The translations under genes and the position numbers were made by a program. A model generated the notes under the pieces. The model was not told the DNA's origin. It searched no databases and saw only the letters and a list, made by a program, of their open reading frames with translations. From positions 387 to 17,113 of the forward strand of contig JAQSDS010000402.1 in assembly GCA_029946045.1 (NCBI GenBank): a stretch of 16,727 nucleotides of DNA. The letters are read 5' to 3'. Positions 4,377 to 13,749 of this stretch are shown here, one piece after another; positions within the stretch are counted from its first letter, which is position 1; each line of letters opens with the position of its first letter. The DNA comes from Rhodoferax sp. GTDB lineage: Bacteria > Pseudomonadota > Gammaproteobacteria > Burkholderiales > Burkholderiaceae_C.

Positions 4377-5805
<1,429 letters not shown>

Positions 5806-5809
<4 letters not shown>

Positions 5810-6162
5810 GCGAGCACGCCTTTGCCGGCGGCCGATTTCAGGCTGAAGCTTTCGCCGCAGCCGCAGGTGTTGCTCACGTTGGGGTTGTCAAACTGGAAAC
5901 TCTGCTTGAGCCCATCGGTGACAAAGTCGAGGCAGGCGCCGTCCAGACTCGCCAGATGCTCGGTGGCAATCAGCACGGTCGCCCCGTGGGCCTCGATGCG
6001 TTGCTCGTTGTCGGCTACCTCGTCGGCCAGCGCGTAGGTGTAGGCATAGCCAGAGCAGCCCACCGGTTTGAGGCCCACGCGCAGCCCCATGCCGCTGCCG
6101 TGTTTGACAATTTGTGTGCGGATCTGTTGCGCAGCCGCTGGTGTCAAGGTGATTGAAGTCAT
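5806..6162 (-). CDS. sufA: A-type Fe-S carrier (SufA/IscA/ErpA family), first gene of the SUF operon
   Basis: A-type proteins carry newly built clusters to target apoproteins. The 118-residue product shows the three invariant cysteines: C36 in VGCSGYAY, and C100 and C102 in NTCGCGESF. The fold-defining segment [18 protein letters not shown] (78-95) precedes the last two. The operon position supports SufA, but sequence alone does not cleanly separate SufA from IscA or ErpA. The ATG at 6162 is supported by an AAGGAG ribosome binding site six bases upstream. A palindromic candidate operator overlaps the region just ahead of it. The stop overlaps the sufB start by four bases. Confidence 0.92.
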
Positions 6163-6168
6163 GAAGTT

Positions 6169-6174
6169 CTCCTT
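6169..6174 (-). promoter_or_regulatory. Strong ribosome binding site of the SUF operon
   Basis: AAGGAG on the minus strand with a 6-base spacer to the ATG at 6162. It is the clearest Shine-Dalgarno sequence in the SUF block and fixes the start of the first cistron. The following genes rely on 4-base overlaps with their predecessors. Confidence 0.8.
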
Positions 6175-6175
6175 T

Positions 6176-6196
6176 AGGTGTATTTTAAATACACCT
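6176..6196 (-). promoter_or_regulatory. Palindromic candidate operator (NsrR/Rrf2-like) at the SUF promoter
   Basis: A perfect inverted repeat with 10-base arms, AGGTGTATTT and AAATACACCT, around a single central base (6186). Arm length, the one-base centre and the core GTATTT-N-AAATAC closely resemble the NsrR consensus as I remember it (gATGyATTTnAAATrCATc). One symmetric position in each arm differs (GGTG instead of GATG). NsrR is an Rrf2-family, Fe-S-containing NO sensor; IscR is a relative with different sites. The palindrome overlaps the predicted -10 element and ends one base before the ribosome binding site, a position suited to repression. No Rrf2 gene lies in the window, so the cognate protein is inferred. 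Confidence 0.65.
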
Positions 6197-6209
6197 TATA
6201 AAAGAGCAA
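6182..6209 (-). promoter_or_regulatory. Candidate sigma-70 promoter for the SUF operon
   Basis: On the minus strand, TTGCTC (6209-6204) and TAAAAT (6187-6182) are separated by 16 bases. The -10 element matches five of six consensus positions; the -35 is weak. It would give a leader of only about 12 bases before the sufA ATG. An alternative -10, TATAAG, lies about 13 bases further upstream with no good -35. The surrounding AT-rich stretch contrasts with the GC-rich flanks, supporting a promoter here even if the exact element is uncertain. The rest of the gap up to the tusA end (6210-6293) shows only a weak 5-bp hairpin. Confidence 0.45.
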
Positions 6210-6293
6210 CACGTACCAGGAAATCCAGCAAAGTGAATAGGGGAAATCAGCAGCCTGGGGTTGCAGGCCTAACAACGAGGGCAGGGTAGCGCG

Positions 6294-6521
6294 TTAGCGC
6301 CGGCGCAGCACGTGAATAAATGCCATGCCCAGCGTTTCCTGCTCCAGCAACTCGTTGCCGGTCTGTTTGGCAAAGGCCTGAAAGTCGCGCAGCGAGCCGC
6401 TGTCGGTGGCGATGACCTTGAGTATCTGGCCGCTCTCCAGCTCGGCCAGCGCCTTTTTAGCTTTGAGGATGGGCAGCGGGCAGTTGAGGCCGCTGGTATC
6501 TATTTCTTTGTCGATGTGCAT
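6294..6521 (-). CDS. tusA: TusA/SirA-like sulfur carrier protein
   Basis: TusA-family proteins carry sulfur as a persulfide on a single cysteine, for tRNA thiolation, molybdenum cofactor or sulfur trafficking. The 75-residue product has the hallmark GLNCPLPILKAKKAL with C14 in the CPxP motif, followed by the usual beta-alpha pattern (ILKVIATDSGSLRDFQAFAKQTGNELL). The start ATG at 6521 is preferred because the domain begins there and AGGAA lies upstream; a longer in-frame extension would run into cysM. It sits 34 bases after cysM, probably in one transcript, and 131 bases ahead of the SUF operon on the same strand. TusA normally takes sulfur from IscS; whether SufS serves here is open. Many genomes carry several TusA paralogues, so the exact role is unproven. 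Confidence 0.88.
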   Translation of the reverse strand: MHIDKEIDTSGLNCPLPILKAKKALAELESGQILKVIATDSGSLRDFQAFAKQTGNELLEQETLGMAFIHVLRRR

Positions 6522-6555
6522 GCTGGTTTCCTGGAGTTTTGAGCGCTGCGCGGCA

Positions 6556-7458
6556 TCAGGCCGGAAAGACACCCGTGGACAGATAACGGTCGCCCCGGTC
6601 GCAGACGATGAAGACGATGGTCGCATGTTTTTCGCGCCTGGCTATTTCCCTGGCCACCCAGCACGCCCCGGCGGCTGAAATGCCGGCAAAAATGCCTTCT
6701 TCGCGGGCCAGTTGACGGCACATTTCCTCGGCATCTTCCTGGCTCACGTAGAGCATCTCATCAATATGGGTGGGGTCATAAATTTTGGGCAAATAGGCTT
6801 GCGGCCATTTGCGGATGCCCGGAATGCGTGAGCCCTCGGTGGGTTGCACGCCGATGATTTTGATGGCCGGGTTCTTCTTTTTGAGGTACTGTGACACCCC
6901 GGTGATGGTGCCGGTGGTGCCCATGGCGCTCACAAAGTGGGTGATCTTGCCTTTGGTGTCGGCCCAGATTTCAGGACCGGTGGTCTCGACGTGGATGCGC
7001 GGGTTGTCCTGGTTGGCAAACTGGTCCAGCACGTGGCCTTTGCCTTCACGGGCCATCTGGTCAGCCAGGTCGCGCGAGTATTCCATGCCGCCGCTTTTGG
7101 GCGTCAAAATCAGCTCGGCACCAAACGCCTTCATGGTTTGTGCGCGCTCAATCGACAGGTCTTCGGGCATGATCAAGACCATGCGGTAGCCCTTGATGGC
7201 CGCCGCCATGGCCAGGGCAATGCCGGTATTGCCCGAGGTGGCCTCGATCAGGGTGTCGCCCGGCTTGATGTCGCCGCGCTCCTCGGCGCGCCGGATCATT
7301 GACATTGCGGCCCGGTCCTTGACCGAGCCTGCCGGGTTATTGCCCTCCAGTTTGCCCAGAATGACATTGCCCCGGGCGGCATTTTCAGTGGCCCCAATAC
7401 GCTGCAAGCGCACCAGTGGGGTCTTGCCGATCAAATCCTCGATGCTTGAATATTTCAT
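6556..7458 (-). CDS. cysM: Cysteine synthase B (O-acetylserine sulfhydrylase, PLP-dependent)
   Basis: CysM makes L-cysteine from O-acetylserine and sulfide, and CysM-type enzymes can also use thiosulfate. The 300 residues contain the PLP lysine K47 in NPAGSVKDRA, the substrate loop TSGNTG (74-79) and the phosphate-binding GTTGT (180-184). CysM-specific features are RIPGIRKWP (211-219) and the C-terminal VCDRGDRYLSTGVF (285-298). The ATG at 7458 gives the usual MKYSSIEDLIGKTPLVRLQ start; a GTG three codons earlier is possible. No strong ribosome binding site is seen. Only 37 bases separate it from the divergent tRNA-Leu, so the two share a promoter region. Product cysteine is the substrate of SufS in the adjacent operon. 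Confidence 0.94.
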   Translation of the reverse strand: MKYSSIEDLIGKTPLVRLQRIGATENAARGNVILGKLEGNNPAGSVKDRAAMSMIRRAEERGDIKPGDTLIEATSGNTGIALAMAAAIKGYRMVLIMPEDLSIERAQTMKAFGAELILTPKSGGMEYSRDLADQMAREGKGHVLDQFANQDNPRIHVETTGPEIWADTKGKITHFVSAMGTTGTITGVSQYLKKKNPAIKIIGVQPTEGSRIPGIRKWPQAYLPKIYDPTHIDEMLYVSQEDAEEMCRQLAREEGIFAGISAAGACWVAREIARREKHATIVFIVCDRGDRYLSTGVFPA

Positions 7459-7472
7459 AACCCGCACTGTGC

Positions 7473-7478
7473 CATAAT
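7473..7478 (+). promoter_or_regulatory. Possible -10 element of the tRNA-Leu gene
   Basis: CATAAT matches the -10 consensus at five of six positions and lies 17 bases before the mature tRNA 5' end. A convincing -35 at standard spacing is not visible; TTGAAT at 7446-7451 would need a 21-base spacer and falls inside the start of cysM. Confidence 0.3.
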
Positions 7479-7495
7479 TCGGGCCTCAAAGCGTA

Positions 7496-7580
7496 GCCCG
7501 GGTGGTGAAATTGGTAGACGCAGGGGACTCAAAATCCCCCTCCGAAAGGAGTGCCGGTTCGATTCCGGCCCCGGGCACCA
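7496..7580 (+). tRNA. tRNA-Leu (anticodon CAA, codon UUG), CCA encoded
   Basis: The sequence folds as a class II tRNA. Acceptor arms GCCCGGG (7496-7502) and CCCGGGC (7570-7576) pair perfectly, with discriminator A at 7577 and genomic CCA at 7578-7580. The anticodon stem is GGGGA (7523-7527) with TCCCC (7535-7539), enclosing the loop CTCAAAA; the anticodon CAA is at 7530-7532. A long variable arm (CTCC GAAA GGAG) and a TpsiC segment GGTTCGATTCC follow. The gene stands alone and lies divergent to cysM. No repeat of its 3' end was noticed downstream, so there is no sign of it being an island attachment site in this window. Confidence 0.97.
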
Positions 7581-7663
7581 TCCTCATGATCGTAAGTTGG
7601 CAGCCAAACCGAGCGTTTTGGTTCTTGCCCCAAAAAATCACTCCTTCAGGATCGAGCCTGCCC

Positions 7664-8362
7664 ATGACGCGAGCCCTCACGCGCACCAGTTTTCACAGCG
7701 CCAGATTGATCCATGTGCTCGCTGACCTGTCTTTGCTGGACAAGGCCGCGCAGGGTGCCGCTTTTGCAGAAAAGCTGGGCACCTGGGTGCGCTTCACCGA
7801 CGCCATCACCCTGTCGGCCGTGCACAACGCCAACCCGGCCAGTCAGCCCGGTTTGCCCGTCGGCTTGAGGGCCGACGCACACAGCGAGCTTGGCAAGACT
7901 TTAGCCCGCGTCCAGGCTGGCCTGGTGAGTTCGATGGATCGGGCGCAAGCAGAACTCCCGGCACCAGAAGCTGATGCGTTAACCGATCCGACGGCCGGCT
8001 TTGAGCCCTACCGGCGCCACTACCTGGCGCAGCAGCGCGAGATCGAATTGAAGCTTCGGGCCTTGCGGGCCCAGGTGCGCCAAGTGCTTGGCCAGTCGTC
8101 AGCGCGGCTCAGAAAGTTGGTCGCGCTGGATGCTGCCTTTGAGGGCATCCTCGCCGAGCGTGAAAGCAAGCTGCTCCTGAAGCTGCCTGTGCTGCTCGAA
8201 AAACGTTTCAAGCAGTTGGCCCAGGTGCAGCCGCAAACGCACACGTGGCTGACCGGCTTTTGTCGGGAAATGCAAGCAGTGCTGCTGGCCGAACTGGAAC
8301 TTCGCATGCAACCGGTGCTGGGCCTCATGGAAGCCTGCCACCAGGATTCAACCACGGGATGA
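7664..8362 (+). CDS. DUF3348 family protein, first gene of the motor-like cassette
   Basis: Function unknown. The 232-residue product appears soluble, without signal peptide or membrane helix. It is recognised as DUF3348 by its N-terminal block (TSFHSARLIHVLADL, about 9-23), by GFEPYRRHYLAQQREIELKLRALRAQVR (about 112-139), and by its place ahead of DUF802. From about residue 115 it is rich in Leu, Arg, Glu and Gln and predicted largely helical. The ATG at 7664 starts the family-like N-terminus; AGGA lies about 13 bases upstream, so the ribosome binding site is poor. The reading frame stays open back into the tRNA, but that extension does not look like protein. It ends 10 bases before the DUF802 gene, implying cotranscription. 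Its helical character and operon partners suggest, as inference only, a cytosolic partner of the membrane complex. Confidence 0.85.
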   Translation: MTRALTRTSFHSARLIHVLADLSLLDKAAQGAAFAEKLGTWVRFTDAITLSAVHNANPASQPGLPVGLRADAHSELGKTLARVQAGLVSSMDRAQAELPAPEADALTDPTAGFEPYRRHYLAQQREIELKLRALRAQVRQVLGQSSARLRKLVALDAAFEGILAERESKLLLKLPVLLEKRFKQLAQVQPQTHTWLTGFCREMQAVLLAELELRMQPVLGLMEACHQDSTTG

Positions 8363-8372
8363 CACAAGATCA

Positions 8373-10409
8373 ATGAATAAATATCTGTACTCAGGCGCCT
8401 TTTTGTTGGGTGCCATGGCAGTCGTCTGGATTGGCGCCGGGTTCGTGGTTTCACACCCACTGGCCTTGGTGATGACGCTGCTGATTGCCGCTGTCTATGG
8501 CTTTGGCACGCTGGAATTGCGTCAGTTTCGTCAGGCCACGAACAGTTTGTCGCAGGCGCTGACGGCCCTGCCCGACACGCTGACTAGTCTGGGTGACTGG
8601 CTCAGCCAGTTGCATCCGTCGTTGCAGAATCAGGTGCGTTTGCGCATTGAAGGTGAGCGAATCGGCTTGCCTGGTCCGGCATTGACGTCTTATCTGGTGG
8701 GCTTGCTGGTGATGCTGGGCATGTTGGGCACGTTTTTGGGCATGGTCGTTACCCTCAATGGCGCGGCCTTTTCGCTGCAGGGAAGCACCGATCTGCAAAC
8801 CATCCGCAGCGCGTTGGCGGCGCCCATCAAGGGTCTGGGACTGGCGTTTGGGACCTCGGTGGCGGGTGTGGCTGCGTCTGCCATGCTGGGCCTGATGTCG
8901 GCTGTCAGTCGGCGCGAAAGAATGTTGGCGGCCCAAGCGCTGGACAGCAGAATCGCGACCACGCTACGCAGCTTTTCGCTCAGCCACCAGCGCCAGGAAG
9001 CCTACCAGGCGCTGCAATCCCAGGCCCGCGCCCTGCCTGCGGTGGTCGATCAATTGCAGGCCATGATGGTGCAGATGGAACAGTTGAGCCAGCAATTGAA
9101 CCAGCGCCTGCTGAGCAACCAGGACGGCTTTCATGGTGAGGTCAAAGGCATGTACCGTGAATTGGCCGCCTCGGTGGACCAATCGCTCAAGGACAGCCTG
9201 ACGCAAAGCGCCCAGGTGGCCGGCGAGAGCCTCAAGCCGGTGCTCGAGGCGGCTTTGTCGGGCATGGCCCAAGACGCCAGGGAACTGCACCAGCGCGTGA
9301 TCGGCAGCACGCAGGTACAACTCGACGGGCTGTCGGCCCGGCTGATTGAGACCGCTGCCACGGTCACCGCGGCCTATGCCAATCTGCAGTCTGATCAGGC
9401 CACGCAAGAGCGGCAGCAACAGGCGGCGTGGCGCGCGTCGCTGGAGAACATGGCGGCCACGCTCCAGCGGGAGTGGCAGCAGGCTGGCGCGCAGACGTTT
9501 ACGCAGCAGCAGCAGATTTGCACGGCGCTGGCCCAGACCGCCGAGCAGATCACCATCAACGCACAGACCCACGCCAGCAGCACGCTCAGCGACATCCAGC
9601 GCCTGACCAGCAGCTCGGAGGCGCTGATTCGCTCCCGCATGGCCTCCGAGTCGCAATGGCTGGCGCAGCATGACGCGCGCATGAGGCAGTTGCTCAGTTT
9701 GCTGCAGACCGAGCTCGGTGTGCTGCGCGACCAGGAAGCGTTGCGGGGCGATGCGGCCGTGGCGCGCCTGGGCGACTTGCAGATTGCGGTGACTGCCCAC
9801 TTGAGCACGCTGGGAACAGCATTGGAAGACCCGATCAGGCGGCTCATCGAGACCGCCTCGGAGGCGCCACGCGCCGCTGCCGACGTGATCGGTCAATTGC
9901 GCAGGGAAACATCCAGCAGTGTGGCGCGCGACAATGAATTACTGGAGGAGCGCAGCCGTATTCTGGTCACCTTGAACACCTTGCTTGCGTCCATCAACCA
10001 GGCGTCGCTTGAGCAGCGTGAAGTCATCGGCACGCTGGTGGCCTCCTCGGCCGCGGCACTTGCGCAAACTGGCGGCCAGTTCGCCACGCAAGTCGAGCAG
10101 CAGACTGACAAACTCGCCGACATGGCGGCCCAGGTCACCAGCAGCGCCGTGGATGTAGCCAGCTTGAGTGACGCGCTGGGTTTTGCGGTGAGTGCCTTCA
10201 GCGAGGCCAACGCCAAACTGGTGGGTCAATTGCAACGCATTGAAGGCGCCATGGACAAATCGATGGCCCGCAGCGATGACCAACTGGCCTACTACGTGGC
10301 CCAGGCCCGTGAAATCATTGATCTGAGCCTGATGTCGCAAAAGGAAATTTTTGACGAACTGCGCCAACTCCCGGCCAGGCAGGCCCTTTTGGCGCAAGAG
10401 GTGAACTGA
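8373..10409 (+). CDS. DUF802 family MotA/ExbB/ZorA-like membrane protein with long coiled-coil tail
   Basis: Probable stator-type channel subunit. The 678 residues begin with two membrane helices (about 8-26 and 29-46), a periplasm- or cytosol-facing loop, then two more (about 105-128 and 152-178). The last two carry GMLGTFLGMVVTL and GLGLAFGTSVAGVAASAMLGL, a pattern shared with MotA, TolQ, ExbB and ZorA proton-channel subunits. From about residue 185 to 650 the chain is Ala/Gln/Leu/Ser-rich, lacks further membrane segments and looks like a long alpha-helical coiled coil, the layout reported for the ZorA tail. No chemoreceptor signalling tip is apparent. Its stop overlaps the next gene's ATG by one base (TGATG). 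The DUF802 label is from memory of the family and its neighbours; a transport or chemoreceptor-like role is less likely. Confidence 0.82.
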   Translation: MNKYLYSGAFLLGAMAVVWIGAGFVVSHPLALVMTLLIAAVYGFGTLELRQFRQATNSLSQALTALPDTLTSLGDWLSQLHPSLQNQVRLRIEGERIGLPGPALTSYLVGLLVMLGMLGTFLGMVVTLNGAAFSLQGSTDLQTIRSALAAPIKGLGLAFGTSVAGVAASAMLGLMSAVSRRERMLAAQALDSRIATTLRSFSLSHQRQEAYQALQSQARALPAVVDQLQAMMVQMEQLSQQLNQRLLSNQDGFHGEVKGMYRELAASVDQSLKDSLTQSAQVAGESLKPVLEAALSGMAQDARELHQRVIGSTQVQLDGLSARLIETAATVTAAYANLQSDQATQERQQQAAWRASLENMAATLQREWQQAGAQTFTQQQQICTALAQTAEQITINAQTHASSTLSDIQRLTSSSEALIRSRMASESQWLAQHDARMRQLLSLLQTELGVLRDQEALRGDAAVARLGDLQIAVTAHLSTLGTALEDPIRRLIETASEAPRAAADVIGQLRRETSSSVARDNELLEERSRILVTLNTLLASINQASLEQREVIGTLVASSAAALAQTGGQFATQVEQQTDKLADMAAQVTSSAVDVASLSDALGFAVSAFSEANAKLVGQLQRIEGAMDKSMARSDDQLAYYVAQAREIIDLSLMSQKEIFDELRQLPARQALLAQEVN

Positions 10410-11044
10410 TGGACAACAGCGAAGGTGTTGAGCAAACCGCGCCGGTCTGGGCCGTTTTTGGCGACCTGATGTCGGGCTTGCTGGGCGCGTTTGTGCTGAT
10501 CCTGGTTGCGGTCATGGGCGTCCAGCTGGAATTGGCCACCAGCCTGGATGCGGAAATCAACAAACGCAAAGTCGAGGAGCAGCGGCGCATGACGCTTGAA
10601 AAAGCCTTGGCGATTCCGCTGGCCACGGGACGCATTACCCTGAACAACGGCCGCATTGGCATCAGTGGCCGCGTTTTGTTCGCGTTGAATTCCGACCAAT
10701 TGCAGCCCGAGGGGCGGCAATTGCTCAACAGCCTGGTGCCGCCGCTGCGTGCCTATCTGGTGTCGCGCAATGAGCTGTTGATGGTGAGCGGCTTCACCGA
10801 TGACCGCTCGATCCGCGAGGGCAACGCGCGTTTTGTCGACAACTGGGAGTTGTCGGCCCAACGGTCCTTGACGGTGACGCGGGCTTTGATTGAGGAGGGT
10901 ATGCCCTCGGCCATGGTCTTTGCAGCCGCCTTTGGAGCCGAGCAGCCGGTCACACCCAACAGCGATGAGGCGGCACGCCAACAAAACCGGCGCGTTGAAA
11001 TGGCACCCGTCCCCAAGACCAATGCTGCCAACGCAACACCATGA
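10409..11044 (+). CDS. MotB/ZorB-like OmpA-domain protein, partner of the DUF802 channel
   Basis: The 211 residues have one N-terminal membrane helix (about 17-41) preceded by a short cytosolic segment, a linker, and a C-terminal OmpA-like peptidoglycan-binding domain (about 85-205). D19 in VFGDLMSGLLGAFVL stands at the start of the helix, where MotB and ZorB have the proton-carrying aspartate. OmpA-domain hallmarks are VLFALNSDQLQPEG, VSGFTDDRSI, NWELSAQRSLTVTRALIEEG and the end motif QQNRRVEM. There is no lipobox or cleavable signal peptide, as expected for an inner-membrane stator subunit rather than an outer-membrane Pal-type protein. Overlaps of one base with DUF802 and four bases with DUF2894 imply fixed expression ratios. 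The proton-channel role is inferred from architecture and the retained Asp. Confidence 0.88.
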   Translation: MDNSEGVEQTAPVWAVFGDLMSGLLGAFVLILVAVMGVQLELATSLDAEINKRKVEEQRRMTLEKALAIPLATGRITLNNGRIGISGRVLFALNSDQLQPEGRQLLNSLVPPLRAYLVSRNELLMVSGFTDDRSIREGNARFVDNWELSAQRSLTVTRALIEEGMPSAMVFAAAFGAEQPVTPNSDEAARQQNRRVEMAPVPKTNAANATP

Positions 11045-11661
11045 CTGAGCCGGCGCAGGATCTCGGCGCGCAACTGGCTGGCCTGCGGCTGGCGGGTGCG
11101 GCAGACTTTGATGCTGTGACTTTTCGTTACCTGCAGACGCTGTCTGAGCGCGTGGCCAGGGAGCAAGGCGAGGTCAGGCGCCTGCTCGAAGTCAGGTTGG
11201 CACAGGGGCTGCAGCGTTTGCAGGGACGCTTTGAGCAGGCGCAAAAGGCGGCCCGGCATCACGTCGCCCGCCAACCCGGTAGCGTGCCTCCTGCCCCGTT
11301 GGGCGAGCTGCTTCGTTACATCGTGCAGCAAGCGCCGCAACCGGTTGATGCCGGTGCCTGGTGCCGCGCCAACGGCGCACGCCCCGAGCTCAAAAGCGTG
11401 CAGCATTTTCGCGCGACCTGGTCCAAGCTCAGCGTCGACAAGCAGGTGGCTCAGGCGCTGGATCAGGCGCCAAGGAACGCCGGGCCCATCAATTCGCACA
11501 TGTTGGTGCTGCGCTCGCTGGCGCTGATGCGCGAGCTATCGCCGGCTTACCTCAACCGTTTCATGGCTTCGGTGGACGCCTTGCTCTGCCTCGATGAAAG
11601 CGGTCAGGCCAGGACGACCCAGACCAAAAAAGTACCGCGCTTGAAAGTGGTTAAAAAATGA
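11041..11661 (+). CDS. DUF2894 family protein, last gene of the motor-like cassette
   Basis: Function unknown. The 206-residue product is basic, apparently soluble, and recognised as DUF2894 by its C-terminal block at about 115-185: ELKSVQHFRATWSKLSVDKQ, then VAQALDQAPRNAGPINSHML and VLRSLALMRELSPAYLNRFM. The N-terminal third (25-75) is predicted helical with heptad-like Leu/Val spacing. The tail is Lys-rich (TKKVPRLKVVKK). The ATG overlaps the preceding stop as ATGA, which fixes the start. The very conserved central block resembles a protein-interaction module more than an enzyme; no catalytic motif is visible. Together with DUF3348 it brackets the two channel-like genes and is presumably a cytosolic accessory factor of the same complex. 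Confidence 0.87.
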   Translation: MTEPAQDLGAQLAGLRLAGAADFDAVTFRYLQTLSERVAREQGEVRRLLEVRLAQGLQRLQGRFEQAQKAARHHVARQPGSVPPAPLGELLRYIVQQAPQPVDAGAWCRANGARPELKSVQHFRATWSKLSVDKQVAQALDQAPRNAGPINSHMLVLRSLALMRELSPAYLNRFMASVDALLCLDESGQARTTQTKKVPRLKVVKK

Positions 11662-11671
11662 GCAGCTGACA

Positions 11672-11693
11672 GGGTCAGGCCCTCAGCCGACCC
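11672..11693. terminator. Hairpin between convergent genes, possible terminator
   Basis: GGGTCAGGC and GCCGACCC form an 8-bp GC-rich stem with one bulged A and a 5-base loop, in the 36-base gap between the convergent DUF2894 and pta stops. No U-tract follows directly on the plus strand. On the minus strand a T-run appears only about 15 bases later, inside the end of the DUF2894 gene. The position favours a shared terminator, but the weak U-tract keeps confidence modest. Confidence 0.4.
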
Positions 11694-11697
11694 GGTC

Positions 11698-13749
<2,052 letters not shown>

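Follow-up and report, generated by a model that had tools for sequence, protein, structure and literature searches.

In the Zorya systems of types I and II, structures place five ZorA subunits around two ZorB subunits, and in the authors' model an attack on the cell wall is sensed and ion flow turns the ZorA rod (PMC11890865). These types are reported to require the ZorA tail, the ZorB aspartate and binding to peptidoglycan (PMC11890865). Payne et al. named type III in 2021; they counted 6,401 loci, reported that the system of Stenotrophomonas nitritireducens in E. coli BL21-AI lowered plaquing for at least one of five phages (T1, lambda-vir, T4, PVP-SE1 and T7), and proposed its DUF3348 and DUF2894 proteins as regulators of ZorAB (PMC8565338). 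Type III is the type without an identified effector, and in the literature searched its two extra genes go by their domain names in two papers. Their systematic names clash, ZorF being DUF3348 and ZorG being DUF2894 in the text of the papers, whereas PADLOC-DB 2.0 uses ZorG3 for DUF3348 and ZorF3 for DUF2894.

We analyzed a stretch of 16,727 nucleotides from Rhodoferax sp., referred to here as the window, whose source genome is a 3.3-Mb draft of 481 contigs, 86.7% complete. ORF calling placed four contiguous genes on the plus strand, separated by +10, −1 and −4 bases: a DUF3348 gene (7664..8362, 232 aa; Pfam 1.7e-52), zorA, encoding a motor subunit with a long cytoplasmic tail (8373..10409, 678 aa), zorB (10409..11044, 211 aa) and a DUF2894 gene (11041..11661, 206 aa; Pfam 4e-51). 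The ATG at 7664 is a plausible DUF3348 start because the in-frame GTG at 7502 falls within a tRNA-Leu (CAA) gene on the plus strand (7496..7580 by ARAGORN; Rfam RF00005 at 7496-7577), from the end of which the cassette start is 84 bases away. A consensus scan of 7400-11760 gave no sigma-70-like promoter. The type III models of PADLOC-DB match all four genes, at 1.9e-64 for DUF3348, 9e-252 for ZorA3, 6.5e-110 for ZorB3 and 7.7e-62 for DUF2894, and chance is excluded by these E-values together with the co-occurrence of the genes in sets of 150 and 299 genomes. Judged by sequence, the cassette is a Zorya type III system, a known anti-phage system.

The ten main ORFs of the flanks were scanned with Pfam. 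On the left, the opposite strand carries a SUF-type iron-sulphur set and a cysteine-synthase-like gene of the PALP family; the right flank contains pta, genes for cation efflux and for a response regulator, and one ORF that matched no family. Neither ZorC with ZorD nor ZorE, which would mark types I and II, was present among these ten ORFs, and neither was any flagellar, Ton or Tol family. The scan bears on a reading in which ZorAB is an accessory flagellar stator pair of the MotAB/PomAB type with unusual partners, a notion suggested by the resemblance of ZorB to MotB-type proteins but already contradicted by the family assignment: the window ZorA has no MotA/ExbB Pfam match and carries a tail of ~460 residues, the type III models match, DUF3348 and DUF2894 are constant companions and flagellar families are missing from the scanned flanks, so that we regard this reading as exceedingly improbable. 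The first-pass annotation of this DNA had described a four-gene cassette with the spacings given above, encoding an ion motor of the ZorAB kind, in which ZorA has a long helical tail and the B subunit one membrane helix and an OmpA domain, and lacking any ZorC/D/E, flagellar, Ton or Tol gene; the ORF coordinates, the model matches and the flank scan agree with this description. Its proposal of a separate class of rotary envelope machine, with a purpose yet to be assigned, is ruled out by the type III matches, as the class was named in 2021 and a representative from another species has been assayed against phages.

To compare the cassette with its relatives, we used two sets of loci. The named-genome set comprises the best 80 of at least 586 stretches encoding a relative, hence the nearer relatives, and the second comprises 49 loci from profile-found genomes, chosen with no peptide pattern in the selection. 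The four genes stood in one order on one strand in 69 of the 80 named loci (L041 and L056 are cut at an end); the remaining 11 lacked DUF3348, one of them also ZorA, with the first match at most 129 bases from a contig edge. Among the profile-chosen loci, 46 of 49 showed the same order. The exceptions were G161, which has no DUF3348, is 65% complete and has ZorB3 771 bases from a contig start, and G189 and G195, in which DUF3348 and ZorB3 are on different contigs (G195 has only a 48-position fragment of DUF3348) and ZorB3 lies 152 and ~700 bases, respectively, from a contig end. Complete cassettes show one gene order.

The window ZorB has a single hydrophobic helix at residues 20-38 and, at residues 90-194 (10676..10990, plus strand), an OmpA-like peptidoglycan-binding domain (Pfam 6.7e-17); the NCBIfam match of this subunit is PRK09040.1 at 1.4e-108. 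Three residues, D19 (codon 10463..10465, plus strand), D131 and R152, were invariant in all 83 aligned ZorB proteins, drawn in part from the best 80 of at least 586 stretches, and in 49/49 profile-chosen loci. The latter count is the better evidence for D19, because the set of 83 was partly picked with the peptide pattern WAVFGDLM, which contains this residue; the conservation on which the first-pass annotation had staked its reading was found in both sets. By analogy, D19 is the presumed ion-carrying residue, and D131 and R152 are polar residues of the OmpA domain that we take, from what is known of Pal/OmpA, to be peptidoglycan ligands. As types I and II need equivalents of the aspartate and of peptidoglycan binding (PMC11890865), a like role of D19 and the OmpA domain in type III is probable.

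The window ZorA begins with hydrophobic helices within the first 175 residues, followed by a tail of ~460 residues with a 3.6-residue periodicity. To delineate its parts, we aligned 71 proteins, namely the window copy and 70 of 79 nearer relatives (from the best 80 of at least 586) after removal of incomplete or identical ones. Three parts emerged. The motor core, residues 1-289 in the window (8373..9239), is near-constant in length, residues 19-289 spanning 270 positions in 61 of the 71 proteins. The rod that follows, residues 290-490 (9240..9842), is 202 residues long here, and the segment between residues 289 and 491 ranges from 75 to 530 across the 71 sequences. The tip, residues 491-656 (9843..10340), returns to a near-constant length, with 165 residues in 69/71. 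In the profile-chosen set of 48 ZorA proteins, in which fragments were retained, the core kept its length of 270 positions in 24 and the tip its 165 positions in 39, with rods of up to 566; the constancy of core and tip is less strict among more distant ZorA III proteins.

The core is the part that ZorA III shares with the other types, matching the ZorA1 and ZorA2 models at 3.5e-10 and 4.7e-8. Within it, T120 and S162 were invariant, in 71/71 proteins of the nearer set and in 45/45 profile-chosen loci with a residue at the position, while T161 was invariant in the nearer set only, the profile-chosen loci showing 36 T, 4 A, 4 S and 1 C (n = 45). All three fall in the segment that aligns with the 696-residue chain 8vvn_C (core profile E 1.5e-4), which, from its chain length, is probably the type I ZorA from Shewanella described in PMC11890865. 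The tip sets type III apart, since the last 200 residues of ZorA matched ZorA3 models only, at E ≤ 1. Searched at E 1e-30 against 150 genomes from the order, the type I ZorA model PDLC00601 found a protein in one of them, and the ZorA3 tip matched that type I protein weakly. The tip is acidic, with a median pI of 4.7 among the nearer relatives and 4.6 in the profile-chosen set.

DUF802 is a Pfam family of unknown function, and the first-pass annotation had assigned the channel gene to it. This assignment fails for the window copy, which has no DUF802 Pfam match, and it holds for most other members scanned; a DUF802 search of the window's own genome was silent, as was its control, and carries no information by itself. 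DUF802 exceeded the cut-off in 8 of 10 ZorA III proteins chosen mostly for length and in 6 of 10 of a second scan that included the negative window copy, which makes 14 of 19 other ZorA III proteins in a non-random sample, and in 12 of these 14 the best stretch begins at residue 320-324. By these profile matches, DUF802 is a unit of the ZorA III rod in most of the members examined, a link to Zorya for which we found no earlier mention in the literature searched, where DUF802 itself turned up in a single paper, from 2005. The rod part of 10 of the 71 zorA genes also contains tandem repeats of 120-348 bases, such as a 348-base unit repeated 3.0 times in L089 (7206-9989) and a 273-base unit repeated 2.7 times in L088 (6936-9968). 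The repeat period is divisible by three in 10/10 cases, and some ZorA rods have therefore grown by in-frame duplication.

The two partner proteins are both predicted to be helical. AlphaFold2 gave a confident helical bundle for DUF3348 (pLDDT 88.1, pTM 0.83) and an all-helical structure of lower overall confidence for DUF2894 (80.5, 0.45). Neither protein had a Pfam match to a nuclease, helicase or ATPase, and fold searches with the two predictions returned no informative match. DUF2894 is basic, with a pI of 10.4 in the window and medians of 9.8 among nearer relatives (n = 79) and 10.8 in the profile-chosen set (n = 49); a high pI alone is common in control proteins, being at least 9.5 in 26/90 and 26/82. 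Its C-terminal tail is rich in Lys and Arg. The last 25 residues carry a net charge of +5 in the window (11584..11658, plus strand) and of at least +4 in 66/79 nearer and 36/49 profile-chosen relatives, which are not independent of one another, compared with 13/90 and 12/82 control proteins. This tail may bind the acidic ZorA tip or anionic lipid instead of DNA.

These properties bear on a reading in which DUF3348 and DUF2894 form a gate that frees ZorAB upon infection, so that ions leak and the cell stops without any attack on nucleic acid. The lack of nuclease, helicase and ATPase Pfam matches and of an informative fold match is what such a gate would lead one to expect, and the 2021 paper proposes that both partners regulate ZorAB (PMC8565338). 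However, a plain channel would not need a type-specific tip and a long rod, the basic tail of DUF2894 also counts against a gate, and the published model for types I and II is nuclease recruitment (PMC11890865). We consider a gate possible but on balance doubtful.

The cassette is unevenly distributed. With a threshold that we set at E < 1e-100, a search of 60 genomes, its own included, gave strong ZorA3 matches in the own genome, in 9 of 35 genus mates (several of the other 26 being incomplete) and in none of 24 genomes of other families in the order; at E 0.001, matches were found in 22 of the 60 genomes, 12 of them weak. Among 150 genomes of the family, own included, the ZorB3 model found some OmpA/MotB-like match in 149, and the best scores per genome drop from 5.5e-89 to 2.2e-25 with nothing in between, so that the 43 genomes above this gap were counted as having a strong ZorB3. 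DUF2894 was above cut-off in 43 and DUF3348 in 42 genomes, the same ones as for ZorB3, and neither was above cut-off in the other 107; neither partner occurred without ZorAB in this set, and the separate occurrence that would have told against the first-pass annotation was not seen there. Besides G161, G189 and G195, ZorB3 and DUF3348 share one contig in the other 40. Across 299 genomes of the phylum, ZorB3 (E 1e-50), DUF3348 and DUF2894 were found in 12, 12 and 13 genomes, the same 12 for all three and all in the window's class, four of them also belonging to the family set; the thirteenth DUF2894 match is marginal, at 25 bits with neighbours and an internal stop. One clear exception was seen in a control genome, Corynebacterium glutamicum, which has DUF2894 above the Pfam cut-off without DUF3348. 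Plasmid and megaplasmid records held ZorB3 in 27 cases and DUF3348 in 27, with equal counts per genus, and no ZorB3 match was found at E 1e-20 among 50,697 phage records. The type III cassette is an accessory module of patchy presence.

Among the named loci (the best 80 of at least 586), 45 have 4 kb or more of sequence on either side, and they fall into up to 38 site groups, an upper figure as only two called genes per side were compared. Their 90 nearest neighbours matched 17 PADLOC families at E ≤ 1e-10, corresponding to ~10 proteins if same-named models hit one protein, with a strict ceiling of 22; the 82 control genes gave matches to 8 families and to no more than 8 proteins, and the lack of a clear excess speaks against the defence reading. 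The Pfam matches listed for the neighbours (25 of 89 families) include one transposition ATPase, IstB_IS21. The neighbours are mostly ordinary genes, and an enrichment in defence islands is not clear, although a weak one is possible. In a tree of ZorA core and ZorB, a single clade of the 26 Comamonadaceae rows, which include the window and its genus mates, against 28 rows of other families was rejected (AU p 5.9e-114); 17 unassigned rows were excluded, and the grouping was chosen after inspection of the tree. Four Variovorax copies occupy one common site. The cassette seems to be passed on both by transfer and by local inheritance, because the Comamonadaceae do not form one clade and the Variovorax copies share their site.

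At the site occupied in the window, the cysteine-synthase-like gene is adjoined by tRNA-Leu (CAA) in 19 of 20 genus-mate regions, and the cassette is present in 0/20. The 15 regions that extend at least 4 kb past the tRNA vary in content, with some blocks or families shared among relatives. Both the window and L001, which shares its contig with L012, have the cassette at the tRNA-Leu site, and in L013 it lies close to the cysteine-synthase-like gene. Integration of an island at tRNA-Leu was considered and is unsupported: the tRNA 3' end has no second copy in the window, a tRNA is found less than 1 kb away for 2 of 45 cassettes, and there is no integrase among the ten flanking ORFs scanned. On the other flank, L012 has the same arrangement as the window, and in L080 a gene (5380-7428) that shares 85% identity with pta of L012 (11698-13749 in the window) adjoins the cassette on the opposite side. 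The 3' side of pta may be a repeated insertion site.

Taken together, these data allow an envelope housekeeping motor to be weighed, a rotary machine akin to Tol or Ton that would serve cell division or maintain the outer membrane and protect against phages as a side effect. The ordinary neighbours, without clear enrichment in defence or mobile genes, would suit such a motor, as would the four Variovorax copies at one site and the R. solanacearum system, since type III Zorya there exemplifies systems that occur in at least 90% of the genomes of a species (PMC13064858); the latter two also fit stable retention of the cassette. However, a strong ZorB3 is absent from 107/150 family genomes and a strong ZorA3 from 26/35 genus mates (several incomplete), DUF3348 is present in only 40 of 132 family genomes that are at least 90% complete, the cassette occupies many sites and occurs on 27 plasmid or megaplasmid records, and a phage assay has been published (PMC8565338). 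We therefore judge a housekeeping motor improbable. The first-pass annotation had left envelope maintenance, cell division and phage defence side by side and suggested a survey to separate housekeeping from immunity; published support was seen for phage defence only, and the survey gave a patchy presence (43/150 in the family, 9/35 genus mates) that argues against housekeeping, and no clear defence-island context.

We consider it likely that the cassette is a type III accessory anti-phage module of this betaproteobacterium in which the rod serves as a spacer, the tip docks the partners, DUF2894 contacts DNA or binds the tip, and DUF3348 is an adaptor. Carried over from types I and II, two ZorB would sit within a ring of five ZorA, ZorB would serve to sense an attack of the phage on the wall, and ions passing the ZorB aspartate would turn the ZorA rod. 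The length of the spacer could change by in-frame repeats, and the acidic tip of near-constant length would be the docking site for both DUF3348 and DUF2894. DUF2894, with its basic tail, may take a role like that of ZorC as a DNA-contacting or tip-binding subunit, and DUF3348 would act as a helical adaptor. The phage may be stopped through its DNA, the envelope or an ion leak, with no nuclease recognizable in the cassette. A more specific version, which we put forward tentatively and regard as rather unlikely in its full form, is a motor with an expandable rod and no nuclease of its own: coiled-coil units like DUF802 would make up a rod that separates the motor core from the acidic tip and lengthens by in-frame tandem duplication, and rotation of the tip would act on DNA or the envelope via a histone-H1-like DUF2894 together with DUF3348 as helical adaptor.

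In our limited literature search, we found no earlier report of the division of ZorA III into core, variable rod and tip, of DUF802 as rod unit with in-frame repeats, of a tip restricted to type III, or of the basic nature of DUF2894. With a three-part ZorA, a type-specific tip and a basic DUF2894, the question of mechanism becomes one of tests that remove single parts. The tight co-occurrence of the genes without a clear defence-island context suggests that island-based surveys could misread such systems.

In comparison with known systems, the window cassette shares with ExbBD/TolQR the MotA/ExbB/TolQ relation given in the descriptions of the PADLOC ZorA models; it differs in the OmpA domain of its B subunit and in lacking a Ton or Tol family among the ten flanking ORFs. 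With MotAB/PomAB it has in common a channel subunit, an OmpA-domain subunit and one conserved aspartate, whereas the long tail, the missing MotA Pfam match and the missing flagellar families in the same ten ORFs set it apart. The likeness to Zorya types I and II, as described in PMC11890865, extends to the ZorAB motor, the ZorB aspartate, the ZorA polar residues, the peptidoglycan-binding domain, the rod and the profile relation of the core, the differences being the other tip and flanks in which none of the ten ORFs is ZorC, ZorD or ZorE. The type III copy that was tested came from Stenotrophomonas, whereas the window copy is from Rhodoferax sp., and no DUF802 unit was detected in its rod. 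The kind of system is already known, and what is usefully added to it is the anatomy of rod and tip together with the basic partner; the closest match is the type III of Payne et al. (PMC8565338), with the same four components in the same flanking arrangement and with DUF3348 and DUF2894 as the type-defining genes.
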